A stretch of DNA of 64,000 nt, from positions 6,515,001 to 6,579,000 of the forward strand of contig OY727095.1 of assembly GCA_963402885.1 (NCBI GenBank), written 5' to 3'. Every line of letters starts with the position of its first letter. Position 1 is the stretch's first letter. The DNA is from Antedon bifida. Lineage: Eukaryota; Echinodermata; Crinoidea; Comatulida; Antedonidae. Shown here piece after piece: positions 1,807-47,363 of this stretch. The notes beneath the pieces are model-generated. The model saw only the letters and a program-made list of their open reading frames with translations. It was not told the DNA's origin and did no database searches. The translations under genes and the position numbers were made by a program.

Positions 1807-2086
1807 AATTGCAGACTGAGCTCTTACAGTACAAATAAATTCTTATTACACAATATTATATACTACTGAGCTTATCTCTAACATGTACCTTAATGCACCA
1901 AAATCTTAAGAAACATCTATCGGGTAATGTATATAATTTTTGTTTTTTTCCCTTATTCTACCATAAATATTACACTTATACCATCAATCAATCAAAATAA
2001 TTCCAATCAATCAACAAATAAAAATGTTTCATAAATATAGTGCTTAAAAGTCAAAATAGTTCTAGCTTCAACAATACAGTATTACT

Positions 2087-17658: not shown

Positions 17659-20600
17659 ATGGGTGCTTTTCGGGTTGTCTTCGGTGGCATCTGTTTTCTT
17701 TTATCATCTTATTTCACAGATATCGTCAATGGTAAGAAACATTCCGTTATTATCATTTTATGTTACGTTATTACGTTACGTTTAATCCATCAGTGCTCCC
17801 GTCGTCAATTTTATCACTCTTATATTTTTTATCATTGAGAGTTTATCGGGATATATTAGGCCCCTGGGAATATATAGGCCTGTATATATCTTACGTATTA
17901 CATCATGCTTTATCTTTATACGAATCCCCGTTATAGACGTGGAGCTGTGCTTGGTAGTTATTGTGCTTGCCTCTCAATCTCAAGGTCCGGGTTCAATCCT
18001 GACCTAGTGACAGGGTTGTAACTCATGACTCTTTGGTCAACTCCACTCCCTAAGCCTCAAATGAGACTTAGTTTATAAGCACGATAATTATGAAATAGTT
18101 TATGTATCCATCCTGTATTGGCGAGTTTGTACTCTCTGTTGATAAACCAACTTTAGCAGAAAATAGAATATTGTAGGCCTACTCAGAAGCAATAAATATC
18201 TCTTTGTGCTCTTGTAGTAAAAAAAACACGTCACATCTGACAGTAATTGCCTGTTATATTTTATTTATCATTGATTATTTATGAATGAAATCAGCATTTA
18301 CCAAAGATCGTCAAATAGGCCTAGACCTAATATGGTTTAAAATTTAGTATTTCGGAAAATTAAACTTGCGACACATTTTCTTCAAAATCATTTCCGCGTT
18401 CCACAAAAAAGTCTTTATTGCACCGAAGGCCAAAACAAAAAAATCTTGTTTCAGGCTACGGGATATGATTTTTTTTTTTATTAAGAACTTTTTTACTTAT
18501 ATTTGCTTTGCTATTCATTTTCGACAATAATCATACATTTATGCCCAATCATAAATTGGGCCTTTACCGTGGATTCTTTTGTTCTTTCGTCCGTTGATTT
18601 ATGTCTTACGGCTCGTGACTGCAATGATCGTCTTCATTTTTCAACCATGGCGGAGATTTTACCTATCATGCTATTGTTATGATAAAGATAAAATGGGGTT
18701 TAATTTTTTGAACAGAGTTCCCCTGTCCTAAGGGAACGTCGTGAATAATTCTTTTTTTTTTATTCTGGGCATAAATCTCGCCCAGGACCACGTGAAGCTG
18801 CTGAGATTGTTTTACGACGAAAATATTGGTTAAAATACTTTCAGTAATGTAATGGAGTTAACAATATACGAACGTAATTTTTTAACACAGATTTTTGTCG
18901 TAAAACAATTTTCTTTTAAATAGTTGTCGTAGCAACAATGTTGACGTCATCGTAATGAACTACTAACCAATCAGAATTAACTGGAAAGGCGTGTGTGCGC
19001 AAACTATCTTTGGTGGTTGGTTGTTAATGTTGTGGTGGTTTGTGCGCGTGGTGTAGGCTACTTGACTAGCTCGTTCCGTGTGTTATTTTCTGTGTTGAAA
19101 TAAAGTGCATGAATTAATAATTTATACTTAGTACATGGTTATGCAATTTGTAAGTCCGAAATTGTGCAAGTGGATGAATTAGCTAGGCCCTCCTGCATGC
19201 TGGGTGGGTATATGTCTACCTAGCCTTAGGCCGACCTAGGCCTACCTTTTACTAAGCTAGGCCCTAGGCTAGTTTAAGTTAGGCTAGGCTAGGTGGTGGC
19301 TGTCTGTATGTTTACAGTGTGAATACAACACATTTACTATACTATTACTATGTCTAGCTAAAAATTAAGGGTATTTATGTAGTAAAGTAAGCCTAGGCCT
19401 AGTAACTTAGCATACAAATGAACAAATGTAGGCTAGGCCTCTAGGACCACCTACAGTTACGGTAGGTACAGACTGGCACTGTCACATAGTATAGGTGATC
19501 ATGTTCTCTGAAAGAGACTCTGGAGGACCACTGAGTAAAAACAATACGAGACATTAAGTTGACTATATGATATTTTTTAAAATCCTGACCCATTGCACTA
19601 TCTTTCTGAAGTTTTAGCAATATAAATGCACTTTTTTCAGGAACTGGCAAACCACTGACCTGCAATTTTGAAAGTGCAGACAGTCGATTATGTCAATGGC
19701 AACAAATGTCTGCAGATGATTTTAATTGGACACCGTTGAGTGGACAGACTGGCTCAGTAAACACTGGTCCTCAATATGGAGACCACACTTATGGTTCATC
19801 ATCTGGCTACTATCTGTACATTGAGGCATCTGGGCCCGATACTAATGCCAATGCCCGTATAATTAGTCCTGTTATAGATCCTCTGGATTCTACATGTGCC
19901 GTAAGAGAAATTTCACAACAATTTCATTTCGTACAAAGATTGCCCAACACACTTGTTTGACTTTTTATAAGTGAAATAATTATTTTTTTGGGTTTTTTTT
20001 TACAGAAGTGAATAACTTTAGTAAACTGATTTGATTAATCTTCATTTTTCATGTTTTTGGGGGAAAATACATCTTTAAGAGTTGTCAAAACAATATAGAC
20101 TATCTGATATTCTTAACTGCATAAAACTCCTAGAAAGTAGGAAGCCTTTTTTTCCCCTCCTGACTTTTGTGTCATTTTCTAGATGCTTTGTTTCGTTTGT
20201 AGGCCTACTAATGCTAGAAAGTATATTCTGTTATAGATGACGTTCTACTACAACATGTATGGAGCAAGCATAGGGTCTTTACACGTTTACGTAGTCGTTG
20301 CTAGTGATCAAAGTGAAAGTGAAATCTGGAGCAAAGCCGGAAATCAAGGATCATCCTGGAAAGGACAAACCATAACATTTAATGTGGCTTATAAATTCCA
20401 GGTAAAGCAATTACACTAATAAATTTGATTGCTAATAATAATAATAATATCCTGGATTTTATAGCACCTAATGTTGTGAAACCTCTAAGTGCTGAACATT
20501 ATTACCCCAGTCAATTTGTTTGGATCAAACACGTATGTAAACATACTCCCATAATGCAGCTAGTAATCAGCTCAAAGTTGTTTCTTGATCTAACCGGGTT

Positions 20601-23600
20601 CCCATTTAAACACCTGGGTGGAGAGAGGCAAACGTAAGTAAAGTATCTTGCCCAAGGATACAAGCAATGCGGCGAGAGTTGGATTCGAACTTCACTTTCA
20701 CGATCAGTAGTCGAACGTCTAACACACTGCACCACATGCCCTTACTAATAGCAATGAAAAGCTTGCACGTTTCATGATGGGGTAATGATGATAAACCAAC
20801 ATGTCAATTCCAAATTATTGATCTTTGTATTAGTGCATGTCTACGTATCTCCCACAATACATCATACTATATCAACTATTTAACGGGTCAACTCAGACAA
20901 AACGTCTTGACTCGTTGGTGCTAATTGAATTCTGATAGCGCCGGGTGTTGTTTTTAGGTCGTCGGAAGAACTTTAAACTGGTTTAATCCTCTCCTCCCGA
21001 TGAGACGACTGGTCGGGCCTTGTCGTACGACGCTGTCTGGGTTGGCCTTTAGATGCCAAAATGTATAATATCTCTTCCCTCGTCCAATATTGCATAAAAA
21101 GACTAAGGTTCCATAAATTAGATAATGCAAAAAGAGTTTAATAACTTGTTTAAAATGGTTGGCTGGACTCTTTATCATCATGTTGGACGTTCAAAAGTCT
21201 TCATGAAAATAATTTTATGACTAAACCATCATAATTTTTTTTTAAAGGTTATTATCGAGGCTGTGCGTGGCTCAGGCATTGCAGGCGACGTAGCAATTGA
21301 TGACATTTCATTTTCAAATACATGTGAAAAGTTTGGTGCGTATAATATTAATATAGAGATAGATATTTTAATGACGACGTAGGTCAAGTTAGGTCATGTC
21401 AATTCATTGAAGTTAAGACATACTTTTGTTTATACTTTATCATCGTATCATATACTTATATTTTTCTCCAGAATAGCCTTAATGAAAATACCTAAAGTTG
21501 TGTTCTTGTAAACATCGATTATTATCATTATAAATGTTTAATTTGTACAGTGAATGGAAGCCTGCGGATTGTCAAACATCAACAATCTTCATACACCAAC
21601 CAAGGTCGTATTGACGTCTACATTAATGGTAACTGGCGCTCCATTTGCAATCGTAATTTCGACCTTGAAACGGATGGAATTGTAGCCTGTATTCAACTGG
21701 GGTACCGAAAGGCTGATTCAAGTCCAACTGAGTACCTAGTTTTTGATGATCAAGACCCAATAATTGATAACATTCAGTGTTTTGGAAATGAAACTAGTCT
21801 GTTGGATTGTGGGAATGATGGGGTGGGAATGATCAACCCTACTTGTGGTATGACTACTGTTGTCAACTTAAAGTGTAGTGGTAGGTTATATTCTGTTCTT
21901 TTTCTCTCTGTTCTCTATTTTTGAACATAAATTTAGTTATTTTGAAGACAGTACCTGTAATTTAATCTGTTTTCCTTTTTTGTATTGACCCCAGTGGAAA
22001 TTAAGAATGTTGCAGGGTTTAAAAATGGTGAACTGAAGTGCTGAACTAAAAATGCCAGGAGGCTTGAGGTTGCCAGGCCGACTGCCTCTAACATTACTGT
22101 TGTTCCATTTATTTAAAGCATTTGCCCATTTTTATTACATGTACAGTTAATTAAAAAAATGTTAATTTTCTGATGATTGTAATACATTTGTAGATATCAT
22201 TGACCGGTGTGAGGATATCGGTTATGATTCCTTTCCCTGTGACAACATCCATTGCGTCCCCTCTGGCGAAAAATGTGACTTTGCAAATAATTGTGGTGAC
22301 AATTCAGATGAAGAACGGTCAATTTGTGGTAAGTCTGTTTTTTTTTTTTTTCGAGGCTTTGTAATCATTTATTATTGTCATAATTGTCATTTAAAAAAAT
22401 GTCATCATCATTATTGTCAACATCATCATCATTGTTGTCAACATCATCATCATTGTTGTCAACATCATCATCATAGTTGTCAACAGACATCATCATTGTT
22501 GTCAACATCATCATCATAGTTGTCAACAGACATCATCATAGTTGTCAACATCATCATCATAGTTGTCAACATCATCATCATTGTTGTCAACATCATCATT
22601 ATTGTTGTCAACATCATCATCATTGTTGTCAACATCATCATTATTGTTGTCAACATCATCATCATTGTTGTCAACATCATCATAGTTGTCAACATCATCA
22701 TTTTTGTTGTCAACATCATCATCATCATTGTTGTCAAAATCATCATCATTGTTGTCAACATCATCATCATTGTTGTCAACATCATCATCATTGTTGTCAT
22801 CATCATCATCATTGTTGTCATCATCATCATTGTTGTCAACATCATCATCATCATCATAGTTGTCAACATCATCATTATTGTTGTCAACATCATCATCATT
22901 GTTGTCAACATCATCATCATTGTTGTCAACATCATCATCATTGTTGTCAACATCATCATCATTGTTGTCAACATCATCATCATTGTTGTCAACATCATCA
23001 TCAACTGATGCTATGAAATTTAATTTAATTAATTAAATTTTAATTTGATATTTTTCCAGAAATGTATCCTGGTAGAAACAGCTTCCAAACGGATTTTGGT
23101 GAATGGGCAAATGTGGTTACAAATGGAATTGATTGGTCAAGAACATATGGTCAATCATCCATGGTTGGACCATCTGTAGATCACAATGACCAGACAAGTA
23201 TGAGTATTTTATTGTTTCTTAATATTTATTCAACCAATCGGAAATTTGGACAGTCCCTCTCTAACTTTTTCTTGTTGATTTATATCCTCATGTAACTTCC
23301 TTGAAATTGATGGTCTAACTTAAGCCGATTTTCCACTTCCACTTTCCAAACAAAATAATCTATTCAAAGTCTGATTTAATTAATCTTCATTTTTCTTGAA
23401 AACAATACAGTTTTAATATTTTATGTGACATTACTTTTTTACAGCTGGTTACTTCCTTTTACTTGACGCTTCTTCGAATGGTGGGGAGAAAGCTCAACTT
23501 TGTTACGAAAGAAAGTTTGAAGCAACCTCTACAAATTGCTCTGTAAGTCGTTTTTTACGAATTTTAACCATCACTAATTGAGGGCTAAAAGTTTTATACA

Positions 23601-26600
23601 TTACTATTTTATGTTCAATTTGAAATTCTATCCAGGCTTTGATTTTTCATCCTAGAAAATATTAAATTTTTTTCATTTGCAATTATGATATTGTTCACAC
23701 ATTTCAAACTTAAAACAACAGGCACTACTTTGATTGTTAAGAACTAGAATTTATATAATAAGAAAGAAAAGGGTTTATACATTTGTTTGTTATACACATT
23801 TTTGATACTCCACAAACAGGGTGGGTATTTTTTCTAGTACTGTTCTATAAATATTTCTTTCAATAAAAGTTCAGTAAAAGGATTTACATTATGTATCACC
23901 ATCCAATATTAGTTATTTTGTGTCAATATTTTAAAAATACTTGTTTTTAAGGTCCGATTTTATTATTACCGAAACATTGCGACTGCAGGAGAAATTAGTT
24001 TAATACTACGAACAACATCACCATCGGATTTATGGACAATCTCGTCTACGTTTGCGTCTTACAGCCAATGGGGCTATGAAGACATTAGTATCACTGCGTC
24101 TGAATCTTTCCATGTGTGTTTTGAGGCTGTTATCCCTCCTACAGGAAATGGTTATTTAGGATTGGACGATTTATCTCTGACTCCAGGATGCATCATCGGT
24201 AAGCATGGTTTTCAATCAATCAATCAAAATCAATTTATTCCATAAAACTAAGGATATGTACAAATATGTCATCAAAAAGCTATGGAAAAGGGAACTAAAA
24301 ATAATCAAAGCTTTTAAGCCGAGACCCTTAAAAACAATAAGGTAATAAGAAGTTATTTATATCAATAACAATAAAAAAAAAAAAAAATTACTTTAAAAGA
24401 AGATGATAGTGAAATATGTTTGAAATTGAGATAAGTTGACCAATTTACTAATGTAACTATAGTTACACAACTCACAGGCACAAAACTTAAACAGTAATAG
24501 GACTTTAGAAAGCATCCCACAATACAATGTAAACAATTGACTTCTGCAGTGGACATACCATATTTATTTGAATAGATCAGGGGATAACCACCTATTTGAT
24601 AGGGCAGATCATTACTATTTGTAATTGTTGGGTACATGCAGTGCCTAAAGAAAAAAAAATTGACAGTACAGGGCCGTTACCATTACAACCTGGGGGTGTC
24701 GGGTGGCGTTTATTCATAGCTGGGTGTTTACTCAAATTACGGTAACTGAGTGAAATGCTATAACTATCATTAATTGTATCATTCAAAGTTTAAAACAGTA
24801 CTATATTGTATGTTCATTAGCTTCGGATGAATGTGAATTGACAGGCCCAATATTTACATGTGATGATGGTCTTTGTATTCATTATGATTACATATGTGAT
24901 CATATTCATCATTGTTTTGATGCATCGGATGAGAATGCCACACTATGCGAAGACCGTAAGTTACATTTTAGATGTTTCTCAACATCGCATACACTATACA
25001 AACAATATACAGTAGTATACTTTCGTAAAAGGTCACAATATAACTGCAAGCGCACAATTCAATGAATGAAAATGACATATTTTTTTCGTTGGTCGTTCGA
25101 AGCTCCATGAAGTGAGTGAGTGGGCAAACGGTTAAGACAGTGGAACAATTATTACGTATTCATAACATCGACAAGGGTTCGAGGCTTACTCGCTCCATGG
25201 TTTTGGTAGTAGAACGAGTCTTCTCGGATATGAAGTATAAACTGTAGGTCCAGTGTACACATCTAGCTCAGGTGCACTTTAAAGAACCTAGTACATCTTT
25301 CTAGATGAGTGGGGTACACACAGCCACTGTCACTCACAGCCACTGTCACACTGATCATAACTGGGCTCACTGTGCAATTGGGACTGGACCGTTTTAGAGG
25401 TGTTTACCATATCCCATCCTTCACTAATGTACATCTTAGATAGAAGTTATAAATATAAATATATATTCTTCTTCGTTAAGATGTTGGCTATTGCACATTT
25501 GAAAACGGTTTTTGTGATTGGAAACAAAGTGTAGAAGACAACTTGCAATGGATTATGCATTCTGGTGATACACCGTCACAGGCCACAGGACCATCAGTAG
25601 ACCATACACTTGAAAACCAGTTTGGTGAGATTTCACATTTTACTGTGTATTGCATCACACACAGATCAAATGTTGTATAAGTCTTAAACTCTGTCTACAC
25701 TATCAAGCTTTATGTGACAAAAAAATATGATATGGGCATATCACTACCATATTTGGGCACATCACACTTTTTTTGTCAAACTAGTTTGATAGTGTAGACA
25801 GAGCTATATAGGTTAAAGATGATGATTGAGGATTTGAACCATGAACTGCTGAACCCACTCTATAACAACATTTAAGAACTTAATTATTAATTTAATTTTA
25901 ACTAAATTTAGCTTCTCCATCTTCTTACTTTGTTCATTTGCCTTATACCAATATTTTAATTGTGAATTTTATACTATGGCCAATGTTAATAATGTCTCTA
26001 CAGTAATTATCCATTTTATTTTTACTTTTCTTTTTGTTATATTTTACTTGTATTGTTTTTACTTTTGTACATTTGATTTTGTTAAGTGATCCACCAGTGA
26101 TATCAGTACTACAATACTGAAGGTGTCTTATAATAATAATAATAATTTATATAGCGTGCATATCCACTAAAAGTGCTCAAGGCGCTTCACAATAAAGACA
26201 GAAATTGATAAATAAAAAAAACATGTAACCATTTTGTTGTTGCTTTTACAGACTTGATCTTTTTGTTGTCAGTGTTTAGAGTCGACCTCATTAAAAATAT
26301 TCAATAATAATTTATATTTTTTTTAAGGTTCATATGCCTATCTTGAGACTTCTAACACAAATGATGGAGACTATGCAGACCTTGTGAGTCCGTGGTTGTT
26401 CTATAGTGACTCATGTGATGTAAGTATTTCACCCATTTTATTTAGCGTATTAAAGTAATTTTTATTTTAAAGGAAGGAGAAACAAATCATCCAGCAATAT
26501 GAGCAAAATCCAATTCAGATACTGTATTTTTAGAAACTTGTTTTTTTAGGGATATATTCTAGTATTCTAAATGTGTTTTTGAATTTGTTATTTATTTATA

Positions 26601-29600
26601 CTGGGTAATCTTTTCAATCAAAGACTGGTCTCCCGGAGGTCACAGTTATGATCAGTGGCTATGATGTACTAGTACAGTGGGGTAACCCCCTACTTGTCTC
26701 GAAAGATGTACTAGGTTCTTTAAAGTGCACATGAGCTAGATGTGTACACTGGACCTACGGTATATATTCCTTATCTGAGAAGACTTGTTCTACCACCAGA
26801 ACAATGGAGCGAGTGAGCCACGAAACCCTTGCTGATTGATTGATTTTTAAAAATGAAGAAAGGAAAATAGGGAGAGTTGAGTTACTGCAGTTGATCTAAT
26901 TTTATTTAAAATATCAGAAAAAAGTATGCAAATTAAAAAGTTACTTTTCCTTCACAGCTTCGCTTATATTTTCATATGGACGGAAACGATGTAGAACATC
27001 TAGAAATTGGAACATCCACAAGAAGTTCTGCATCTCCTACATTTAAAACAGAGAGATTCTCCAGAAATTTCTGGAGGTATACTTCGTTATCTGCTGCAGA
27101 TAATAATGTACCTATAAATACAGAGTTCCAGGTATGATTTCAAAGGTTGCGAATGGCTGCAGTTTTAAAAGCTTGGAAAAAATATGTGCAAATTGTCTTT
27201 TTATTGATTTTCTGACAACTACCCAAATATCCACCACCTCCCACCCCCTGTTTGCAGACGCTGATTTAAGCGGGGTCTAAACAGGCTTTAGAGTTGAGTC
27301 AACTGTACATGTACATTACTATAAAGCTCTATCTACACTATCAAACTAGTTTTGGCAAAAAAAGTGTGATGGCCTCAAATATGGTAGTGATATGAGATAA
27401 TCGTGTCCATATATAGACACATTTTTTTGTCACATAAAGTTTGATAGTGTAGACAGAGCTTAAGACTTTGTTGTTTTTATAGTTTATTATCAGGGCGACA
27501 GCAGATGGACCTATGGGGGACATTGCAATTGATGACATCTCCCTGTCAGCAGGCTGCATTTTAGCCCCAGGTATGTTGATATACGAGTGATGTGAGTAGG
27601 CTAGCTCCTTTGACAGCAAAATGTTCTTCAAACTGTTTATAGTACATATTTCATAATTATAAACTTGAAAAGAAAAATGTTTTTATCAATTTATTTCTAT
27701 CATACACATGAATGCCGTGGTAGTGTAGTCATACCATAGGCAACTATACTGCTACCACCATATACAAACTTTTAAACAATCAGCGCTCCCTCACAATTTA
27801 TAAAATCAATGATGCATAAAAAACAAATTCTGTATGTATTAGATAGTGATAATCACGACAAGCAATGCACTGCTTGTGATAATGTTGATGTTACCAATAA
27901 AATAGCACACACATTGGGGGTACATACCTGGCACCAAAATGTGATCTTATACCTAGTCAGTAGCATAATGAAAACAGATTGAAATTTGTTCTTGTTATTT
28001 CACTACTGTATAGATCTGGGGATAATTTTAGGTTTTGGCAATTTATTTCAGATTTAACAACTACCAACATACCAACAACTACCAACATACCAACAACAAC
28101 CAAAATACCAACAACTACCAAAATACCAACAACAACCAACGAACCAACAACAACCAACAACATACCAACAACGACCAAAATACCAACAACAACCAAAATA
28201 CTAACAACTACCAACATACCAACAACTACCAACATACCAACAACTACCAACATACCAACAACTACCAACATACCAACAACTACGAAAATACCAACAACTA
28301 CCAAATTGACAACAACTACCAACATACCAACAAACCCACAACATTCTACAATGTTTACAGTTCCATTAATGTCAACTGCAGGTCAGTCAACTTCAACTGC
28401 AAGCCCGTCAACCTCAACTGCGAGTCGGTCAACTGCGAGTCGGTCAACCACAACTGTGAGTCCCCCAACCTCAACTGTGAGTCGGTCAACTTTAACTGCG
28501 AGTCCCTCAATCTCAACTGCGAGTCAGTCAACTTCAACTGTGAGTCGGTCAACTTCAACTGCGAGTCAGTCAACCTCAACTGTAAGGCCAACCAAACCTA
28601 CAGAAAAGCAACACTTTACTAGTGTGTCAAAAACCGACAAAACAACACTAACAAAAACAATATGCAAGTTCAACATCAAGACCGTGGAATCTTTTTGTAA
28701 GAGAGCAATGTTTCTTAATTTTTGCAGAATAGCTTTCTGTATCAATTTTACTATACAATTTTCTCCAGATGTTTCAGACGCAGAACAACAGAACCAAGTG
28801 CTGCACTTATTATTAAGATCCTACTTAAGCTTAATATTTTATCAGTGTTTTTTACAGTATAGTAAAGGCTGCATATACATTAGGTGAATTATTGGATTGC
28901 TTTGGACTTAAGCTCTGTCTACACTATCAAACTAGTTTGACAAAAAAATGTGCCCAAATATGATAGTGATATGCTAAAATATGGTAGTTATATGACATCA
29001 TCATGTCCATGTAGGGCACATCACATTTGATTGTCACATAAAGTTTGATAGTGTAGACAGAGCTTTATGTTTTACCCATTTGACCTTACATGACCTTTAT
29101 TGTATGATTGTGGATATTTTTTCAGCCTCCTGTATAGATGGTTATGTCACAAGTTGCAATAAGGATGGCATCATGAGTATTACAGTTACACTAGGTGATA
29201 AGACCTGTTCCTGGACGATTAGTACAGAAAGTGAAAATATCAAAATAAATCTAAACGGTATTGTACTTATTTTATCCTTTTATATTATTTAAAGATGTAT
29301 TTGTCCCCCAAAACATGGAGACTAATAAAATCAGACCATTTTGCAGTTGTTCACTTCTGTAATAAAAACACCCCAAAATATAATTATTTCACTTATAAAA
29401 AGACAAAATAAACAGTTAATTTTAACCAAAAACCATTGTCCGACAATTTAAGTATTTTTTGGTTTAAATTATTTCTTTTTTCAGGTAAATAATTGTTTTT
29501 TTCGATCCAGTTTTTGGTCAAAGTAAATAACTATTAGGTGAAATTAAAATGACATATATATAAGGGCTAATAATAACTCACTAGACATTAAATTAAGTGA

Positions 29601-32600
29601 TACCAACAGGGTTGGGGTTCCTCAAAATGGCAATCACATATCTATTTGATGGTTGTACATGTCTTTAAAATGATTTGCTTAAATTATATTTTTGATGGTT
29701 AACTTTGTCTTTGAACAGTTCGTTCGTTGTCCTGGGTGGTTGTAGGGGCGTAGCAGATGAGATACAGTAGTACTCATCATGATACAACACTCAGGCATAT
29801 ACCATATCTCCCAGCGGTACCTATCTCCACTCTGGGCTGTCGTTGGTTCTCCTGAACCGACGCCCTTGTGGGTGTCCAACCACCCTCCACACCATGCTCC
29901 CAAAGGAGTTGATATGGTTACCGGTTTTGTCGCAGGTATGTGACAGTGGCTGTCTGTGTGACCTAGTACACCGTGGTAACTCCCTACTCTTCCGAAAGAT
30001 GTACTAGGTTCTTTAAAGTGCACATGAGCTATGTGTGTACATTGGACCTAAGGTTTATAGTCCTTATCTGAGAAGACTCGTTCTACCACCAGAACCATGG
30101 AGCGAGTGAGCCTCGAACCCTTGCTGATGTTATGGCTATGGAATTACGGTTCAACTGTCGTAACTGCTCGGCCACTCACTCACTCTCTAATTTGAACAGT
30201 TAGGTTTCAATTATCTTTTTTCTTAATTAATTGGGGTGACAGTGTTCGATTGTTGTCTAAACCTCTGCCTAAGGTTCACTTGAGAGCATACATGAAAATA
30301 GCCAACAAGAACAGAACGAAAGTCTTTAAGCCTCCACCAGTAAACAAGTGGATTAGCGAGGGTGTTGATCGTAGCAAACACCAATGTACTGTACGCAAAG
30401 CTTATGTTTTCACTGTTCAAATCAGTATAAAACTTCACTCCAAATAAAACGCTAATCACAAAAGCAGGGGAATAAAAAATGGCAAAGACTCCAATTAGAA
30501 TCAAAAATGTTTTTAGAAGTTTTTTAGAACGTTCTAATTCTTGTGAGTTTTGCTGAACTATTACATTGTGTTGATACTTTATACTTTTGTAGATGTTGTA
30601 GTACAGATAACTTACTATGCAGAAAGTTAAAAAATAGCTAGTCATAAACACTAAAGACATTCTTTGTAGTCCTGCATATAAGTACAAGAAAAATGGTAAA
30701 ATCCAGAGGAAAGTGCACACAGCGATGCACCGTTTAATAGTCACAATGATATCGTATCGTAACGGCGCGTAGACTAAAGCGATATACCTATCCGCAGCAA
30801 CCGCAGTCAAGGTTAATAGAGAGGTAGTCCCAGAAGAGAAAAATGTCAAAGCTGGATCAAACATTTCTAATGAAAATGGCTCAACTTCTTCTTCAAATCT
30901 TAAAGTAATATCAACAGCTAAAAAACCACTTGAAATGACATCAGTCAATGCTAGTGATATTATAAACACATTCTGTTTCTTCCAAAGTGTTTTAGTAGAT
31001 AAAAAAGTGATTACAACAATTATGTTTGTAATCATTGCATATAATCCGAAACAGAATATTATTACAAGGATCTCTGTTGGAGCTCTAAACGTTGATGTTG
31101 AACTTGTTGTATTCATACTTGGTATCTTTACTCAATCTTACCCGTATCTTTACTTAGTATTTCACCATACGGATGCTCTCTTGGCGTTTTACTGGTAACT
31201 TTATATGGGTATTTCACGTCATGTTCTCTTTATAGAGTTCTACGGGTATCTTTACCTCAATAACAGCATTAGTGGAGTTTTATCTGTACAGGGTTTTGCA
31301 ACTGGAGTACAGTAGTTTGTCTGGAAATCACATTTGTTAATAAGATGTGAAACTTCAAAGAAACGAGGAAAGAGTGAATTCCCTTAAAGAAATTATCAAG
31401 TTGTTGTTCACACAAATCATTAGCACAGTACCCTGAGCTGTATTACAATTTCGAGGAGTTGACTTGTTTGAAAGAAGTGGTAACAGGCTATGTTGTGCTG
31501 TTGCGACTGAATTCTACCAGGACTGACACAACAATTCAGAGTCAAGGAATATAGAAACCAGCTACAATAGAAATTTCCTAAATTAATTAGTCTTTATTTA
31601 AAACTGAATGCATTTATTTACGTTATAATATTTAATTATGAAAATCAATTTAAATGAGTTGATTACAAATTAGACTACAACACTATAAATACTGTATGTA
31701 ACATGAGATGTATACTTTTTCATCTAGCATTGCAATTTTGTCTAACAAATTTTCTTAGTTCTATATAAGATGGCACTGTTACTATAGCTACTAAAATGGG
31801 GTCACCCCAATCAACTTTGGTTTCAATGTCTATAACCTAATTTTGTGATATAATTGTTAACCTTTTATCAAAATGTGCTGTATTTATATGAAACACTCAA
31901 TTTCTACAGTTGACTGTATATTTCTATATAATACATACTACTTTATGAAACCATTTATTCATTATTTCTGTTATAGTAGAATCCCTATTAAGTGGACACC
32001 TTCAGACCAAACAAAATGCAATAGGAGTGTCCCTTAAATAAGGGTTGGCGATAGTGTTAAAACATATATTCCCTTTTTCAGTTCAACCATCCCTTAGTAG
32101 GGGTGTCTCCTGAATAGAGGTGTCTCCTGAATAGGGGTGTCTCCTGTATAGAGGTGTCTCCTGAATAGGGTTGTCTCCTGTATAGATGTGTCTCCTGAAT
32201 AAGTGTCTCCTGTATAGAGGTGTCTCCTGAATAAAGGTGTCTCCTGTATAGAGGTGTCTCCTGAATAGGGGTGTCTCATGTATAGAGGTGTCTCCTGAAT
32301 AAGGGTGTCTCCTGTATAGAGGTGTCTCCTGAATAAGGGTGTCTCCTGTATAGAGGTGTCTCCTGAATAGGGGTTTCTCCTGTATAGAGGTGTCTCCTGA
32401 ATAGGGGTGTCTCCTGTATAGAGGTGTCTCCTGAATAGAGGTGTCTCCTGTATAGAGGTGTCTCCTGAATAGAGGTGTCTCCTGTATATAGGTGTCTCCT
32501 GAATAGGGGTGTCTCCTGTATAGAGGTGATAGAGGTGTCTCCTGAATAAGGGTGTCTCCTGTATAGAGGTGTCTCCTGAATAAGGGTGTCTCCTGTATAG

Positions 32601-35600
32601 AGGTGTCTCCTGAATAGGGGTGTCTCCTGTATAGAGGTGATAGAGGTGTCTCCTGAATAAGGGTGTCTCCTGTATAGAGGTGTCTCCTGAATAAGGGTGT
32701 CTCCTGTATAGAGGTGTCTCCTGAATAGGGGTGTCTCCTGTATAGAGGTGTCTCCTGAATAGGGGTGTCTCCTGTATAGAGGTGTCTCCTGAATAAAGAT
32801 GTCTCCTCAATAGTGCCCCTCAATAGGTGTGTCTCCTGAATAGGGGTGTCCCCTCAATAGGGTTGTCTCCTGAATAGGGGTGTCCCCTCAATAGGGGTGT
32901 CTTCTAAGTAGGGGACCGGTAGACCTATTACTGTATATTTGCATGATGCATGTTTTGGGGTTTTTGTTGTTTATGCACTGGGATTTTGTATTCAATAAGC
33001 TCTAAATAATTATCATCAATTATTAAGTATCCCTAATTATATTATAATTTTGTCTTTGTTAGGCATGAATCTTGCAGGTGATGACCAGCTAACAGTTAAA
33101 GATGAAAGCATGAACAATGCTTTTAAATGGAGTAAAGACGATAAAGCATGGTCATCAGAAACGAATGTCGTCAACGTTACTTTCATTCTTACAAGTGACC
33201 GGTTGAAAAGAAATACAGAGGTTGACATGCCTGTGTATCAGTTGGACATTGAAAGTAATTTATTTAAATTTTGTTGGTGCTTTTTCCTTTTTTAGCGGTC
33301 AAATACATTATAAATTAGGTGAACATTTATGATTTACTGTCATCTATATTATTGGAAATAAATACACACATACACTTTGCTTCTACATGTTCTACAGAAA
33401 TTGTAATTGAACTTCAACCACCCCCATGGTTCATACCTATGTTAGTTTTTTTCGGTGAGAGGGGGCTAGAGGTTCCCTACATGGTTCATATCTTGTCAGT
33501 TTTTGTGGGTGAAATGGGGTTAGAGGTTCCCTCCATGTTTTTTGGCCTTTTAGTTTTGTTTTGGAGTCTAAAAAAATTCTAGCCTTCATTGTAAATAATA
33601 CCATTACCATTCTTCATTTTGTATAGGACTTCAAGATGATCCACACAATTTCTCTGTACCTGTAATTGCTATAATTGTAATTGTACTCCTTGTTGTAGCA
33701 CTCACTGTTTTAGTGCTCATTGTAAAATTTAAGGGAAATAATAGAAAACGGTAAGTTTTTTAAAAAAGTGTCTGACTAGATGCCCTTCTTTGCTCCTTGA
33801 CATAGCATGCACATTTTAAAGCACCTGATCCAATGGTGCAGGTATTTTTGTAGAGGGTCAGTCCTATTGCCAATGGTGAGTTTTGAGAAGAGGTAAGGGG
33901 TAGGGGTAGGTGTAGGGGGTTACTATTGCTGGCCTATTTACACTATTTACTCATTTTAACACTGCACTGTATTATATATGGAAAAGGGGAAACAACAACA
34001 TTGCGTATTTAAAATAATAACAATTTTCTAGAAATAAGTTTGTATGGACATTTTAATATGTTCTTATTCCTGATTTATTTGATATAATGGTATTTTTTAC
34101 AGACAACCTGGATTGACTGTGCACTACAGTTGTTCCCGTAAGTCTGTTTTAATTTAATCCATAAATAGTATACCTCAATACATCTTGATTTAACTCAAGA
34201 CTTAATTTGATTGAAAATCCTAAAATCAATGATTAAAAGTTGGTACTTTCTGGTACTAAAACTCTGTCATATCACTCCCATATTTGGGCATATCACTACA
34301 ATGTTTGAGTACATCACATTTTTTTTTTCAAACTAGTTTGATAGTGTAGACTTAAAATAGATTTGATGCCCACCCAAACTAGACAAAATATTTTGAGAAA
34401 ATAATGGACGAATGATCAAAGTTAAAAGGTGGAAATGTTCTATCTACACTATAAAATTTTTGTGACAAAAAATGTGATGTGCCCATATATAGACATGATG
34501 ATGTCATATCACTACCATATTTAGGCATATCACTACCATATTTTGGCACATCACACTTTTTTGTTTGATACTGTAATGAAATTATGAACTGCTTTTTGAT
34601 ATCTATTTTTGACAGCCTATTAATATTCATGTGGCAGATTCTCCAAATTAGTAATAGCCAAGAGCCTACTTTACCAGGCATAGATAGATGAGCTAGGGAG
34701 GATATCTCCCTGGATAAGCTACTGTATAAAACATTTTTAAACTTAAATTTTGTTTGAACATCCAGATCATATGACTCTAATCTTAAATTATCTGTGTAGG
34801 AAAACATAATTAATCTCATTTATAAATTCATTTTATAATTTTTGTTTTTTTAAATTTTACAGAAAATGGCAATAATGTGCATGTACAAAATAATGAAATA
34901 TATAATGTAGTAGGTCCAGCGGAACACCTAGTTGATGATGACTGTATCAAACACCCGTATGATGTGGAATTGCCAAATGTAAACAAAGATGATAATAAGA
35001 ACTCAAAGAGGATATCAGGTACAACGCTTTTCTACCAAAATAGGCTTATCAACATTTAAAAAGAGAAATAGAGACACCATGTTCAATAGAACATGAACCC
35101 AGTCAGCCATTTTGTATATAAACCAGTGTTATCTAGCTCACATGTACTTTAAAGAACCTAGTACATCTTTGGAGACGGGTAGGGTTACCCCGGTGCACTA
35201 GTATACACAGCCACTGTCACACACAGACACTTATCATAACTCATCATAAGGGCCCTTGATTGTCAGATGCTGTTTAGGGTTACCCTCTATCAATAAGGTT
35301 GAATAAATAAGGTTGAATAAAATAAATAAAAACAAAAGATAAGATTTAAGCTGCTAAATTCTAACTAATTTTGCGTTGTTTTTATCTAGCTAATGAATAT
35401 GTAAAGATGGATGGCCAGAGGGAGTATGCACAAATGTTGCCCTCTATCGATCGACAAAAACTGCCGACTATTTCTGGACCAAATGTTGCTAGCCTTCACA
35501 GACCAATACTACCACCCATTCATGCAGAACCAGAATACTTAGTTCCCAGCACACCACCTCCTAAGTATGAAGAGATTCAAATAAGGGGATTTGATAATTT

Positions 35601-37244
35601 TGCATATCATGGACATGAGGCTTTAGCAGCAAAGAACTATGGTGGTAGGTACAACGCCCCTTGAACAATCATTAAACTGACACTATCTTTGCACACCTGC
35701 AAAAAGTAACAAGTTGTAATTGTAACCAGGTTTGCATAGTGTGAATTTCTCCTGAGATTTCGCAGGGGTCCATACACCGATGAGTTGATGTCCCGAGTTG
35801 TTACTGCGCGCACATGTATTGCCTTGGTTTTAAACTTAACAATCATAGTAATCAAATACTGCAGTGCGCAAACTATGCTTTCTCCGAAGATTTCTCGCGG
35901 TTCTCGTATTTGTGTGTGAAAACATGTAATAAGTTTGGAGATCAAACCATGTTACAACTTGTAACAATTTATGCATATGTTATATTGCATTCATGATCTT
36001 TTTTTTCTTCTCTACAGATAAAAAAGTTTTCGAGTTTTTGAAGAACATCGACCTCGACCGTCACGCCAAATCATTTAAGGATTCATTTGTAGTTTTTGAT
36101 GACATTCCATATATAGAATCGGAGGAATTACAAGATATGGGATTGAACAAAACAGAGATTAAACGTTTTCTTCGAAAATCAAAAGAAGTTAAAAAACAAA
36201 AAGTGGTATGTTTATTTATATATATATTGGTATAAATGACCTGAATCGAGGGGACTTTTAGTGAACGTGCATGACGTTTACGTCCACATGAGTCGTAGTC
36301 AGTTTCAAACCTGTGTACAGTACATTCTAATATGTTATTAATTATATCTTTTAACCGTCAACAGCATACATTTACTGGTAGGATTGTACATTATTGATAT
36401 TTTGTCACAATTTTTCAGAGGGGTGCTTTTGACGATGTCACGGTGCCATCAGACTTCCTGTGTCCAATAAGCAGAAGCATTATGACCCAACCAGTAACAG
36501 CTGCCGACGGAGTTACTTATGAATTTAAAAATATTGATGGTAAGAACCAAACTGAAGGGCAAGACTAAACCCTGAAATCGTTTTCCCAAACACTTTAACA
36601 AAAAAACCAGAGAGTGCACCCAATTGGAAGCACTTTATGAATATTCATCATATAAGCGAGTCAAATGGCCGAGCGTTTAAGGCAGGGGCGCCATTAATTA
36701 CCGTACCTAAACAATATCGGCATGGGTTCGAGACCGCTCTTAGTTCTGGTGGTGGAACAAGTCTTCTCGGATAAGGACTATAAACTGTAGGTCCAGTGTA
36801 CACAGTTATAACCCATGTGCACATTAAAAAACCAAGTTCATCATTCAAGACGAACAGGGGGTTACCCTGGTGAACTGGTTCACAAAATAGCCCCTGTATC
36901 CAGCGATTTATTTAGTATTGGTAATCCTTGGCCACATGTGCCTAAAGACATAAAATTTAGGACTATTTACCAGATAAACAGATTACTTGATACAAATTGG
37001 AATGGTTATTCAATTTTGTTTTACATTGACAGCTCATCTTCAATCTCAAATTACGTCGCCGATAACGAAGAAGCCTTTGGCAAACAAGACATTGAGCCCA
37101 AACATTGAGATTACTGACAAAATTCAGAAGTTTAAAATGAAAATTGAGAATGAACGAAGACGTAAACAACGTCAGATGAGACGAGAGGCATCGGATCTTG
37201 GGAATTCCAGACCACAGACACCTATGACTGATGTAGATTGCTAA
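17659..37244 (+). CDS. Predicted transmembrane receptor: MAM-SRCR-LDLa-MAM-LDLa-MAM-stalk-CUB-like-TM-SAM-U-box
   Basis: Twenty-four exons: 17659-17731, 19641-19900, 20237-20401, 21248-21335, 21551-21880, 22194-22328, 23060-23197, 23445-23542, 23952-24198, 24821-24955, 25481-25624, 26328-26419, 26958-27131, 27483-27570, 28052-28696, 29126-29257, 33063-33254, 33627-33750, 34103-34137, 34863-35018, 35390-35644, 36018-36205, 36419-36539, 37033-37244. All phases agree, giving 1408 residues plus TAA. The first exon is a signal peptide (hydrophobic core FGGICFLLSSYF) chosen for its ATG, phase and position. The ectodomain resembles scavenger/adhesion receptors. The tail carries tyrosine motifs, PPxY, a SAM domain and a U-box, a fold that recruits E2 enzymes. 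Most domain-border introns are phase 1, as expected for exon shuffling. The ligand is unknown. The main doubt is whether one transcript really links the 3.8-kb intron 29258-33062. Confidence 0.83.
17732..19640 (+). other. First intron of the receptor gene
   Basis: It separates the signal-peptide exon from MAM1. It holds a tRNA-like SINE (17938-18130) and several GGCCTAGGCCTA-rich stretches near 19190-19440. No further exon was recognised. Confidence 0.7.
17938..18130 (+). mobile_element. SINE-D, tRNA-like head
   Basis: A box-like TAGTTATTGTGCTTGCCTC and B box GGGTTCAATCC, about 50 bases apart, are followed by a non-tRNA body (CTCATGACTCTTTGGTC). It differs from the other SINE families in the window. 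The 3' end is not sharp. Confidence 0.6.
19985..20076. mobile_element. MITE-B fragment (right end)
   Basis: It carries the family end TTCATGTTTTTGGGGG followed by ACATCTTTAA, and the upstream block GAAGTGAATAACTTTA. Compare full copies at 38456-38797 and 43166-43713. Confidence 0.75.
20077..20170. repeat. Interspersed repeat shared with 45061-45125
   Basis: GAGTTGTCAAAACAATATAG, then CTATCTGAT, AAAACTCCT and CCCCTCCTGACTTT, recur in the same order in a PSMB1 intron. The family is unknown to me. Confidence 0.6.
20415..20752 (-). mobile_element. SINE-C, tRNA-derived, with (ATT)n tail
   Basis: On the minus strand it starts with a tRNA-like head (GGGCATGTGGTGCAGTGTG ... B box AAGTTCGAATCC). It continues with CTTGGGCAAGATACTTTAC and ends in a GCTATAAAATCC segment plus an ATTATTATT tail. 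The head-body-tail layout is that of a Pol III SINE. Confidence 0.8.
21551..21880 (+). other. SRCR domain of the receptor (exon 5)
   Basis: Residues about 195-305 lie in a single phase 1-1 exon. It has the GRIDVYINGNWRSIC opening, the CIQLGY segment and six cysteines in group-A order, ending LKC. SRCR domains bind polyanionic ligands and microbes in scavenger receptors; the ligand here is unknown. Confidence 0.95.
22194..22328 (+). other. LDL-receptor class A module 1 (exon 6)
   Basis: One phase 1-1 exon of 45 codons. Six cysteines and the calcium-binding signature CDFANNCGDNSDE are complete. Confidence 0.95.
22401..23004. repeat. 21-bp minisatellite (GTTGTCAACATCATCATCATT)n
   Basis: About 600 bp of 18-24-bp units varying in the number of ATC triplets, in the intron between LDLa1 and MAM2, starting 70 bp after the donor and ending 55 bp before the acceptor. 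Because most units are multiples of three, it is open in several frames on both strands. These frames are not genes. Confidence 0.95.
23060..24198 (+). other. MAM domain 2 of the receptor (exons 7-9)
   Basis: Residues about 351-511. It keeps the central GYFLLLDAS strand and the end GNGYLGLDDLSLTPGC. The beginning lacks the usual first cysteine of MAM domains (FQTDFGEWAN instead of C-x-FE), so it is divergent. Confidence 0.85.
24821..24955 (+). other. LDL-receptor class A module 2 (exon 10)
   Basis: A phase 1-1 exon of 45 codons with six cysteines and the calcium signature CFDASDE. It has the same length and phase as the first LDLa exon, so the two probably arose by exon duplication. Confidence 0.94.
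25112..25445 (+). mobile_element. SINE-B copy
   Basis: The head has GTGGGCAAACGGTTAAGAC and the B box GGGTTCGAGGC. The body landmarks AAAGAACCTAGTACATCTTT and GTCCAGTGTACACATC are present. It lies in the intron before MAM3. Confidence 0.85.
25686..25805. mobile_element. MITE-A copy in receptor intron
   Basis: Left end AAACTCTGTCTACAC, right end GTGTAGACAGAGCTA. The middle is shortened. Confidence 0.88.
26135..26215. repeat. Interspersed repeat with ATAGCGTGCATATCC core
   Basis: An (AAT)n start followed by TTTATATAGCGTGCATATCC and GTGCTCAAGGCGCTTCAC. This resembles the 3' end of SINE/LINE families common in marine invertebrates; the family is not identified. Confidence 0.5.
26630..26840 (-). 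mobile_element. SINE-B copy, reverse orientation
   Basis: The complement carries the SINE-B landmarks: AAAGATGTACTAGGTTCTTT, ATGTGTACACTGGACC and the CATTGTTCTGG end of the head. The tRNA-like head is cut at about 26840. Confidence 0.82.
27323..27461. mobile_element. MITE-A copy in MAM3 intron
   Basis: Both termini are present. The right terminus ends only about 20 bp before the acceptor of the last MAM3 exon (27483). Confidence 0.92.
28052..28696 (+). repeat. Thr/Ser-rich stalk exon with two coding tandem repeats
   Basis: Exon 15 of the receptor, residues about 723-937. The first part (28052-28340) is an 18-bp repeat encoding IPTTTN/IPTTTK units. The second (28378-28590) is a 15-18-bp repeat encoding STSTASP/SRSTSTV units. 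The composition is that of a mucin-like, O-glycosylated spacer holding the ligand-binding modules away from the membrane. Copy number is likely polymorphic. The exon is used in phase 1 at both ends. The frame stays open beyond the donor at 28697, but the GT is chosen because the next exon then joins in phase. Confidence 0.85.
28910..29065. mobile_element. MITE-A, full copy
   Basis: Complete palindrome with intact ends and TTA on both sides, in the intron between the stalk and the CUB-like exons. Confidence 0.93.
29290..29550. mobile_element. MITE-B related copy
   Basis: The left end is TTTAAAGATGTATTTGTCCCCCAAAACATG and so matches the MITE-B terminus. The right part (GTAAATAATTGTTTTTTTCGAT, AAATAACTATTAGGTGAAA) is shared with 16370-16480. 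No matching right terminus was found. Confidence 0.6.
29938..30188 (-). mobile_element. SINE-B copy, reverse orientation, with complete head
   Basis: The complement starts GAGTGAGTGGCCGAGCAGTTACGAC and has a B box GGGTTCGAGGC and the landmarks AAAGAACCTAGTACATCTTT and GTCCAATGTACACA. It ends 35 bp before the stop of the GPCR gene, so it could act in that gene's 3' UTR. Confidence 0.88.
30223..31116 (-). CDS. Class A GPCR, adenosine/MECA-like orphan receptor, single exon
   Basis: An intact 297-residue frame (ATG at 31116, TAA at 30223) with seven hydrophobic segments. It has N in TM1 (ITNIIVV), LALTDV in TM2, ADRYIAL at the end of TM3 (DRY), PLRY in loop 2, and NPLVYWWRLKDFR in TM7/helix 8, which resembles adenosine receptors. 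The conserved cysteine at the top of TM3 is missing, as in melanocortin, cannabinoid, S1P and other MECA-group receptors. The N-terminus (NTTSSTST) has a glycosylation site. Loop 3 is short. The gene lies on the opposite strand inside an intron of the receptor gene. Intronless orphan class A receptors of this sort are common in echinoderms, and the open frame argues against a pseudogene. The ligand is unknown. Confidence 0.9.
   Translation of the reverse strand: MNTTSSTSTFRAPTEILVIIFCFGLYAMITNIIVVITFLSTKTLWKKQNVFIISLALTDVISSGFLAVDITLRFEEEVEPFSLEMFDPALTFFSSGTTSLLTLTAVAADRYIALVYAPLRYDIIVTIKRCIAVCTFLWILPFFLYLYAGLQRMSLVFMTSYFLTFCIVSYLYYNIYKSIKYQHNVIVQQNSQELERSKKLLKTFLILIGVFAIFYSPAFVISVLFGVKFYTDLNSENISFAYSTLVFATINTLANPLVYWWRLKDFRSVLVGYFHVCSQVNLRQRFRQQSNTVTPIN
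31975..32945. mobile_element. Degraded DNA-transposon-like repeat carrying the minisatellite
   Basis: The left side reads TAGTAGAATCCCTATTAAG then TGGACACC, and the right side GTGTCTTCTAAGTAGGGG. The same GTAGAA-CCC/GGACACC theme occurs at 46150-46290 and 62835-62875 (GGGGGTTCTACTGTA). This looks like inverted ends of a Tc1/pogo-like non-autonomous family, but the borders are unclear. Confidence 0.5.
32099..32912. repeat. 17/34-bp minisatellite (GGTGTCTCCTGAATAGA)n
   Basis: About 800 bp of alternating GGTGTCTCCTGTATAGA and GGTGTCTCCTGAATAGG units. Two internal GTGATAGAGGTG breaks mark a larger, roughly 117-bp duplication (near 32528 and 32639). It is open in two minus-strand frames that are not genes. 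Confidence 0.95.
33627..34137 (+). other. Membrane helix and juxtamembrane part of the receptor (exons 18-19)
   Basis: Residues about 1056-1078 form one long hydrophobic helix (PVIAIIVIVLLVVALTVLVL), followed by a basic stop-transfer stretch KFKGNNRKR. This fixes the topology: MAM/SRCR/LDLa outside, SAM/U-box inside. Confidence 0.93.
34261..34352. mobile_element. MITE-A, truncated copy
   Basis: It begins within the left arm (ACTCTGTCATATCAC) and keeps the right end GATAGTGTAGACTTA. Confidence 0.8.
34437..34575. mobile_element. MITE-A copy with eroded ends
   Basis: GTTCTATCTACACTATAAAA on the left, GTTTGATACTGTAATG on the right, with the inner blocks intact. It is 85 bp from the previous copy. 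Confidence 0.83.
34863..35644 (+). other. Tyrosine-motif and PPxY segment of the receptor tail (exons 20-21)
   Basis: It has two YxxM motifs (EYVKM near residue 1154, EYAQM near 1163; YxxM binds the PI3-kinase p85 SH2 domain when phosphorylated), a KYEEI motif near 1210 (the preferred Src-family SH2 ligand), and a PPKY motif (PPxY, bound by WW domains such as those of NEDD4) that overlaps KYEEI. IYNVV in exon 20 is a further possible SH2 site. Function is inferred from motifs only. Confidence 0.75.
35127..35333 (+). mobile_element. SINE-B copy, 5'-truncated
   Basis: The head is missing. It starts in the body before AAAGAACCTAGTACATCTTT and ends in AATAAGGTTGAATAAATAAGG, showing the family's 3' tail. 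Confidence 0.83.
36018..36205 (+). other. SAM domain of the receptor (exon 22)
   Basis: Residues about 1236-1298. It follows the SAM pattern: VFEFLKNIDLDRHAKSF, then DIPYIESEELQDMGL, then EIKRFLRKSKEV. SAM domains form homo- or hetero-polymers, so the module could cluster the tail. Confidence 0.9.
36419..37244 (+). other. U-box and C-terminus of the receptor (exons 23-24)
   Basis: Residues about 1305-1370. It has VPSDFLCPIS...QPV..ADGVTYEF and, across the intron, ITSPITKKPLANKTLSPN, the typical two halves of a U-box. The CPI and DG-TYE positions used for folding and E2 contact are present. The usual I-x-x-W-L helix reads IDAHLQ, so the tryptophan is missing. A basic helical tail (KIENERRRKQRQMRRE) and a TPMTDVDC end follow. 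SAM followed by U-box is known from the cytosolic WDSUB1. Confidence 0.88.
36656..36895 (+). mobile_element. SINE-B copy inside the U-box intron
   Basis: The head has CAAATGGCCGAGCGTTTAAGG and the B box GGGTTCGAGACC. The landmark GTCCAGTGTACACA is present. The later part is diverged. Confidence 0.83.
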
Positions 37245-46625: not shown

Positions 46626-46920
46626 ATTTGGCCACTATGTTGATAGGGGCTTTACTTAATCAGTAGTGACACAGCTTTTTTGTTGTCTTGCTTCAAATTC
46701 CAATTAATTCTATATTCATATTAAGAATAATTGTAATTTTGTATGCAAAAAAAACACAACAGACTTTTGTAAAAATACAACTGGAGGTCAAAATGTTTTT
46801 ATTTACAAAATCATGTCATATCGTATTTAAAAGTAAACTTTATTTTCCCAACAAGAATAAATTATTGTAGCGTTGAAAACAATACAATAGAAAACCCATA
46901 TAAAGATACATGTATACATA

Positions 46921-47070
46921 AAGGTCTGTCTACACTCACAAACTAGTTTGACAAAAAATTTGCTCAAATGTGGTAGAGATATGCCCAAATATGGTAGTGA
47001 TATGACATCATGTCCATATATGGGCACATCACATTTTTCTGTCACATCAAGTTTGAGCTTTAGACAGAAC
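46921..47070. mobile_element. MITE-A copy with rearranged right end
   Basis: AAGGTCTGTCTACACTCACA on the left. The right end reads GTTTGAGCTTTAGACAGAAC, where GAGCTT has moved inward. Confidence 0.82.
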
Positions 47071-47363
47071 CATAACAAGTTAAAGAGGGGAGGAAAACTG
47101 CCATTGCAAGAAGGTTGAAAAGTGGCATCTAGGGGCCAATCCAGGGGTACATGTGGTCCCCTTTTGACAGCTAAAATTAATGTTTTTGTTTTTAACTAGT
47201 TTTCATAGACTTTCATAGACTAATATATTATGCTGGTCTCCCCAAACAAACCACAAATGATTGTTAATCTGAAATAGATTCATTACTGTTGCCAACATAT
47301 TGCTCCATTGTGTATAAAAAATTACCTATCTACATAATCAGAAAAAGAAAAACTTTTGGAAAC

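Follow-up and report, generated by a model that had tools for sequence, protein, structure and literature searches.

The window, a 64,000-nucleotide stretch of Antedon bifida DNA (C8:6515001-6579000) on contig C8 of a 315.6 Mb genome in 27 contigs, carries on its plus strand a gene for a predicted single-pass, receptor-like protein with a SAM domain and a U-box at its C-terminal end. The gene extends from an ATG at 17659 to a TAA that ends at 37244, limits that match those of the first-pass annotation. Exon-by-exon reading yielded 24 exons encoding 1,408 amino acids, with all introns bounded by GT-AG and no internal stop, as follows:

17659-17731 (+): exon 1, start codon and likely signal peptide, called by eye; 29/30 identical over aa 1-30 in Antedon mediterranea, under the hydropathy threshold
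19641-19900, 20237-20401 and 21248-21335 (+): exons 2-4, MAM 1; model and Pfam
21551-21880 (+): exon 5, SRCR; 58.2 bits
22194-22328 (+): exon 6, LDLa 1; model and Pfam
23060-23197, 23445-23542 and 23952-24198 (+): exons 7-9, MAM 2; model and Pfam
24821-24955 (+): exon 10, LDLa 2; model and Pfam
25481-25624, 26328-26419, 26958-27131 and 27483-27570 (+): exons 11-14, MAM 3; model and Pfam
28052-28696 (+): exon 15, Thr/Ser/Pro-rich stalk; its donor (28696) is the model's least certain
29126-29257 and 33063-33254 (+): exons 16-17, CUB-like module; CUB 16.7 bits against a cut-off of 21.4, 81/103 identical in A. mediterranea
33627-33750 (+): exon 18, predicted transmembrane helix and basic stop-transfer stretch; model and hydropathy
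34103-34137, 34863-35018 and 35390-35644 (+): exons 19-21, predicted cytoplasmic tail with YVKM, YAQM, YLVP and PPPKYEEI; 140/151 identical in A. mediterranea
36018-36205 (+): exon 22, SAM; SAM_2 27.1 bits, genome scan
36419-36539 (+): exon 23, first half of the U-box; model, Pfam and genome scan
37033-37244 (+): exon 24, second half of the U-box, basic C terminus and stop codon; model and Pfam, last 35 residues 35/35 identical in A. mediterranea

A doubtful 57-base exon at 33398-33454, which would have made 25, was dropped from the model because the A. mediterranea protein lacks matching residues. Because domain continuity steered the choice of splice sites, agreement of the phases does not by itself amount to a statistical test; the profile matches and the second species provide one. 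As judged from the sequence, the gene, its predicted domains and its exon matches are more than chance. The intron before exon 17 contains a minisatellite-like array (window 32094-32890) with units such as ATAGGGGTGTCCCCTCA.

Outside the gene, 10 chosen frames of 416, some of them trimmed, were compared with Pfam, and seven gave a match. An open frame cut off by the left edge (1-1842, minus strand) matches zinc-knuckle and PNMA (gag-like) profiles and is a retroelement fragment. A HEAT-repeat gene, presumably SCYL1-like, precedes the receptor gene on its left. Elsewhere in the window are a DAXX gene with matches to the histone-binding and N-terminal domains (48577-50214, minus strand), a flavin-containing monooxygenase gene with two long open frames (51843-53809, minus strand), and hamartin (TSC1) exons (56833-57780, plus strand), a gene that the long frames at 59815-61654 may extend. 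A short, MITE- or SINE-like repeat that resembles TCTACACTATCAAACTAGTTTGACAAAAAAATGTG is present at 28900-29065, 34260-34570 and 46891-47115 and, by eye, at other loci of the genome. A tRNA match of 39.2 bits (14104-14176, plus strand) is possibly a tRNA-derived repeat. Nothing with bearing on the receptor was seen in the neighboring frames scanned.

The domain order of the predicted protein is a likely signal peptide, MAM-SRCR-LDLa-MAM-LDLa-MAM, a Thr/Ser stalk, a CUB-like module, a transmembrane (TM) span, a tail, SAM and U-box. Pfam was run on four pieces (ectodomain, CUB-like, tail and SAM-U-box), leaving out the stalk, the TM exon and the 35-base exon. MAM (301.1 bits, three stretches), SRCR (58.2 bits) and LDLa (34.8 bits, two stretches) scored above their curated cut-offs; CUB reached 16.7 bits against 21.4, under its cut-off, which makes the wording "CUB-like" apt. 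Three SAM profiles exceeded their cut-offs, SAM_TNK (29.2 versus 25), SAM_2 (27.1 versus 20.5) and SAM_1 (25.1 versus 23), and the U-box scored 67.4 bits against 21.4 over profile positions 1-70 of 73. The 137-residue tail piece had no Pfam match. Kyte-Doolittle analysis identified a single hydrophobic span (3.66 over 19 residues from aa 1059), directly followed by the basic KFKGNNRKR. No other hydropathy window in the whole protein exceeds 1.6; the signal peptide MGAFRVVFGGICFLLSSYFTDIVNG fails this threshold and is therefore a by-eye call. With MAM, SRCR and LDLa modules and a TM in one chain, the sequence has the make-up of a scavenger/adhesion receptor, and we predict a type I single-pass surface protein with its ectodomain raised on the Thr/Ser stalk. 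The 24 exons and this domain order had been put forward in the first-pass annotation, and both are borne out by the open GT-AG model, Pfam and hydropathy, with CUB at a sub-threshold score.

An NCBI automatic prediction from A. mediterranea, "MAM and LDL-receptor class A domain-containing protein 1-like isoform X2" (P0001; 1,286 aa), has the same joined architecture from N terminus to U-box and is 91% identical overall. It was the sole match at E <= 0.001 among 2,101 candidates (~785-2,497 aa) for a query of residues 1130-1427, numbered with exon 33398-33454 still included. Over its whole length, Pfam detected MAM, U-box (58.0 bits), SRCR, LDLa and SAM_2 (23.7 bits, above cut-off); SAM_TNK and SAM_1 fell under their cut-offs and no CUB was listed. 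The protein is concordant with our model across junctions, bar two gaps. One is the TTTNIP part (first half) of the stalk, an absence that would be consistent with an acceptor at 28382; the other comprises three residues that follow the TM. Identities at the start of the ectodomain are 29/30 over aa 1-30, 141/162 in MAM1, 104/109 in SRCR and 43/45 in LDLa1, and over its remainder 151/161 in MAM2, 45/45 in LDLa2, 155/166 in MAM3, 78/98 in the stalk and 81/103 in the CUB-like module. From the TM onward they are 31/36 (TM), 140/151 (tail), 57/63 (SAM), 70/75 (U-box) and 35/35 (last 35 residues), so that, set against MAM1 and the CUB-like module, conservation of the cytosolic end is about equal to that of the ectodomain.

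The proposal first made from the A. bifida letters, one gene for a receptor-like protein that crosses the membrane once and has SAM and U-box at its end, is thus supported by the same joined model in a second species. Alternatively, two neighboring genes, one for a receptor and one for a SAM-U-box protein, might have been wrongly joined in both the present model and that of A. mediterranea. AATAAA signals lie in an intron at 35302-35325, the model from Anneissia japonica (below) ends earlier, and the models compared are automatic only. Against a misjoining stand the concordant model of the second species, a SAM exon without a start codon upstream of its domain, and the tail exons, which link TM and SAM in matching phase, contain no domain of their own and are conserved to about the same degree as the domains. 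Although an automatic model falls short of a transcript, the two-gene reading needs the same error twice; because the A. mediterranea model shares the joined architecture, we regard two separate genes as very improbable.

In the searches made, no species beyond the Antedon pair was found to have the SAM-U-box end together with the receptor; these searches pick up proteins that have five-residue words in common with the query, and a lack of matches in distant relatives therefore says little. None of 478 candidates among proteins of ~281-894 aa matched the SAM-U-box query at E <= 10. The ectodomain recovered 400 proteins at E <= 1e-10 among 7,204 candidates, and among the 120 of these 400 that were listed, PF04564 (U-box) occurs only in the A. 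mediterranea protein. An ectodomain orthologue with the whole module order in common is the MAM/LDLa protein of Anneissia japonica (P0007; 998 aa, "isoform X2"), which is 53-59% identical, depending on the alignment. Its model diverges inside the CUB-like region and continues into an unrelated short C terminus, with no TM, SAM or U-box by Pfam and hydropathy; this end may represent a secreted isoform, one of several, or a truncated model.

Within the A. bifida genome, the SAM-U-box part is single-copy: the five matches at E <= 1 comprise the three exons of the receptor gene itself and a further two U-box exons. A 293-residue ectodomain query gave at least 64 matches (134 of 192 candidates scored), of which 7 fall in the receptor gene, 42 in a cluster on contig C12 and 15 elsewhere. 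Among the candidates scored, the best match outside the gene is 33% identical (E 4.2e-13), and none is a close paralogue. The C12 cluster (C12:2690548-2783984) holds its 42 MAM/LDLa-like exon matches within ~93 kb.

Between the TM and SAM, the tail contains EYVKM and EYAQM (two YxxM motifs), EYLVP and PPPKYEEI. All four are kept in A. mediterranea, where the second YxxM reads VYAQM; these conserved tyrosine motifs are new relative to the first-pass annotation. By consensus rules, YxxM is recognized by the SH2 domains of p85, YEEI by Src-type SH2 domains, YxxP by Crk-type SH2 domains and PPxY by WW domains, and the tail motifs are candidates for docking proteins with SH2 and WW domains. The motifs were picked after the tail had been read. 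Two YxxM, against 0.11 expected, arose in shuffled tails with P 0.0027 (window) and 0.0024 (A. mediterranea). The YEEI-like motif (P 0.046 and 0.043) and PPxY (P 0.076 and 0.069) are marginal, YxxP is at chance level (P 0.60 and 0.56), and the tail has no NPxY. Of 50,000 shuffled A. mediterranea tails, one had two YxxM, the YEEI-like motif and YxxP together; the post hoc choice of motifs makes this figure look better than it is.

Six-frame scans of the whole 315.6 Mb genome recovered both the SAM exon (30.4 bits, E 1.4e-4) and the first U-box exon (29.9 bits, E 1.7e-4). Among PDB sequences, the SAM-U-box query matched 27 distinct chains; 26 are named U-box ubiquitin ligases, including LubX, PUB12, CHIP, UFD2, UBE4A and UBE4B, the 27th is named ubiquitin (E 9.7e-4), and none of the 27 is named as a SAM protein. 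Structure prediction for the A. mediterranea SAM-U-box piece (173 aa, single sequence) gave a mean pLDDT of 51.2 and a pTM of 0.24, too low for the model to serve as evidence. Aligned with the CHIP and WDSUB1-like U-boxes of its own genome, the receptor U-box keeps the CPI, SPIT and L.PN stretches. Lys stands opposite CHIP's Arg (ITR); opposite the WDSUB1 Trp is His in A. bifida and Tyr in A. mediterranea, and the A. bifida CHIP shares this His. The Ile after CP, the SPIT and L.PN stretches and the CHIP Arg are places of E2 contact in U-boxes, and the residues found are compatible with a predicted ligase activity, without being proof of it.

A genome-wide U-box scan returned 10 exon matches, one of them the first half of the receptor's U-box. 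The others we take to belong to CHIP on C9 (two), a UBE4-like gene on C13 (two) and another on C7 (one), a UBOX5-like gene on C8 (one), a WDSUB1-like gene on C1 (two) and a RING protein on C1 (one). The nearest U-box among those compared is the WDSUB1-like one (44% over 66 aa, 60.5 bits), with CHIP at 40% and 48.1 bits; the WDSUB1-like U-box is also nearest in a weak tree of 7 rows and 70 residues. On the same strand, ~46 kb upstream of that U-box on C1, is a candidate SAM_2 exon that aligns weakly with the receptor SAM (22% identical, E 0.44). A crude pattern detected no WD40 repeats in ~29 kb upstream of the C1 U-box, which says little. U-box intron positions, compared by eye, are phase 1 after KNID in the receptor, phase 0 after HLQ in CHIP, phase 1 before DGYTYE in the WDSUB1-like gene and after HVMR in the UBE4-like one. 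The SAM-U-box end might have come from WDSUB1 by exon shuffling, but the SAMs align poorly and the U-box introns are at different places.

On balance, we lean toward a clustering receptor that would have its own Cbl-like ubiquitin arm, formed by the tyrosine-motif tail, SAM and U-box. From sequence we infer its membrane topology, phosphorylation, partners, E2 binding, substrates and purpose. Ligand or cell contact would cluster the receptor, with SAM contacts helping, and the tail tyrosines (YVKM, YAQM, YLVP and YEEI) would be phosphorylated. Ligand-driven clustering that could switch on ubiquitination had been proposed in the first-pass annotation, together with a putative immune role. The phosphorylated tail could, by consensus, recruit SH2 proteins (PI3-kinase p85, Crk-type and Src-family), and PPPKY could bind WW proteins. 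The U-box would take a charged E2 and ubiquitinate the receptor itself, docked partners or both; activation would thus bring its own down-regulation or uptake signal. If true, this is a natural one-chain version of the vertebrate receptor plus Cbl. That it is also the first receptor-type U-box ligase, uniting clustering, SH2 recruitment and partner ubiquitination on one animal chain, we suggest only tentatively and with more doubt than confidence.

A different arrangement would follow RNF43/ZNRF3 or GRAIL: the ectodomain would select other membrane proteins and the U-box would ubiquitinate those, with no phosphotyrosine step. The layout of ectodomain, one TM and an E3 module inside is the same, the GRAIL ectodomain binds GRAIL's substrates (PMC4021871), and ZNRF3/RNF43 act on Wnt receptors (PMC3905715). 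However, such a mode leaves the conserved tyrosine motifs and the SAM unexplained, and we think it unlikely. There is a still smaller chance that the U-box lost, or never had, ligase function and that SAM and U-box act instead as a scaffold or a platform for binding. The replacement of the usual U-box helix Trp by His or Tyr and of the CHIP Arg by Lys would fit such a role, but the A. bifida CHIP carries His at the Trp position too, and the U-box match is full length at 67.4 bits, with 70/75 residues identical between the two species. A large scavenger/adhesion ectodomain joined to SAM and U-box would place clustering, phosphotyrosine docking and ubiquitination in one separable protein in which they can be tested jointly.

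Among known proteins, the A. mediterranea counterpart shares the architecture described here and differs by its shorter stalk; its automatic name is silent on the U-box, and no dedicated study of it appeared among the literature matches listed. The first-pass annotation rightly likened the cytosolic end to WDSUB1, which comprises WD40, SAM_2 and U-box (PMC3087547). SAM followed by U-box is common to both; WDSUB1 has WD40 repeats (same source), whereas the receptor has a TM and a MAM/SRCR/LDLa ectodomain, and Pfam found no match to the WD40 repeats, seven of which characterize WDSUB1, in the four model pieces or the whole A. mediterranea protein. WDSUB1 binds WHRN and through it promotes USH2A ubiquitination (PMC10238197), and so offers a known precedent for a SAM-U-box ligase that acts at a receptor tail.

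The first-pass annotation also knew of no metazoan receptor ending in a U-box. Apart from PMC5119243, no receptor-type U-box protein emerged from the literature (titles and abstract beginnings among the matches listed, with few subscription papers and bioRxiv preprints covered), and to that extent the statement stands. It is qualified on two counts: the protein already exists, its U-box unnamed, in the NCBI annotation of A. mediterranea, and Neubauer 2016 (PMC5119243) describes predicted cnidarian DMBT-like proteins combining CUB, MAM, fibronectin, UBOX and SRCR. These overlap the receptor in domain set, including the U-box, but the set is given as a range over several proteins, and the comparison is by description only; they form the nearest, partial precedent, and because of them the claim falls from unheard-of to unstudied. 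Marin 2010 (PMC3087547) counts seven principal U-box genes in humans and reports additional, lineage-specific ones in Nematostella and Monosiga; it also has a few SAM-U-box sequences that lack WD40, two of them of sponge origin. The words "transmembrane" and "membrane" are absent from its text. The receptor would join the few animal U-box genes known outside the principal seven. Text searches of two further papers found "U-box", "ubiquitin" and "crinoid" absent from an SRCR survey (PMC10855680) and U-box and SRCR only in unrelated places in PMC4810158.

The layout resembles that of the PA-TM-RING ligases (GRAIL/RNF128, RNF13 and others) and ZNRF3/RNF43, which have in common with the receptor an ectodomain, a membrane span and an inner E3 module (PMC4021871, PMC3905715); they pair a PA-type ectodomain with a RING, whereas the receptor pairs MAM/SRCR/LDLa with a U-box. 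Neither a PA domain nor a RING finger was detected by Pfam in the whole A. mediterranea protein or the four model pieces. To our knowledge, PA-TM-RING proteins and ZNRF3/RNF43 have no SAM. An ectodomain, one TM and a cytosolic E3 module, the layout of receptor-type transmembrane E3 ligases, are all present in our sequence-based model as far as its predicted topology goes, and we file the receptor as a putative variant of these ligases, with a U-box in place of the RING. The receptor-type transmembrane ubiquitin ligases that we know of are RING proteins with small PA-type ectodomains; if our reading is true, animals have in addition coupled the recognition of ligands directly to a ligase of the U-box type.
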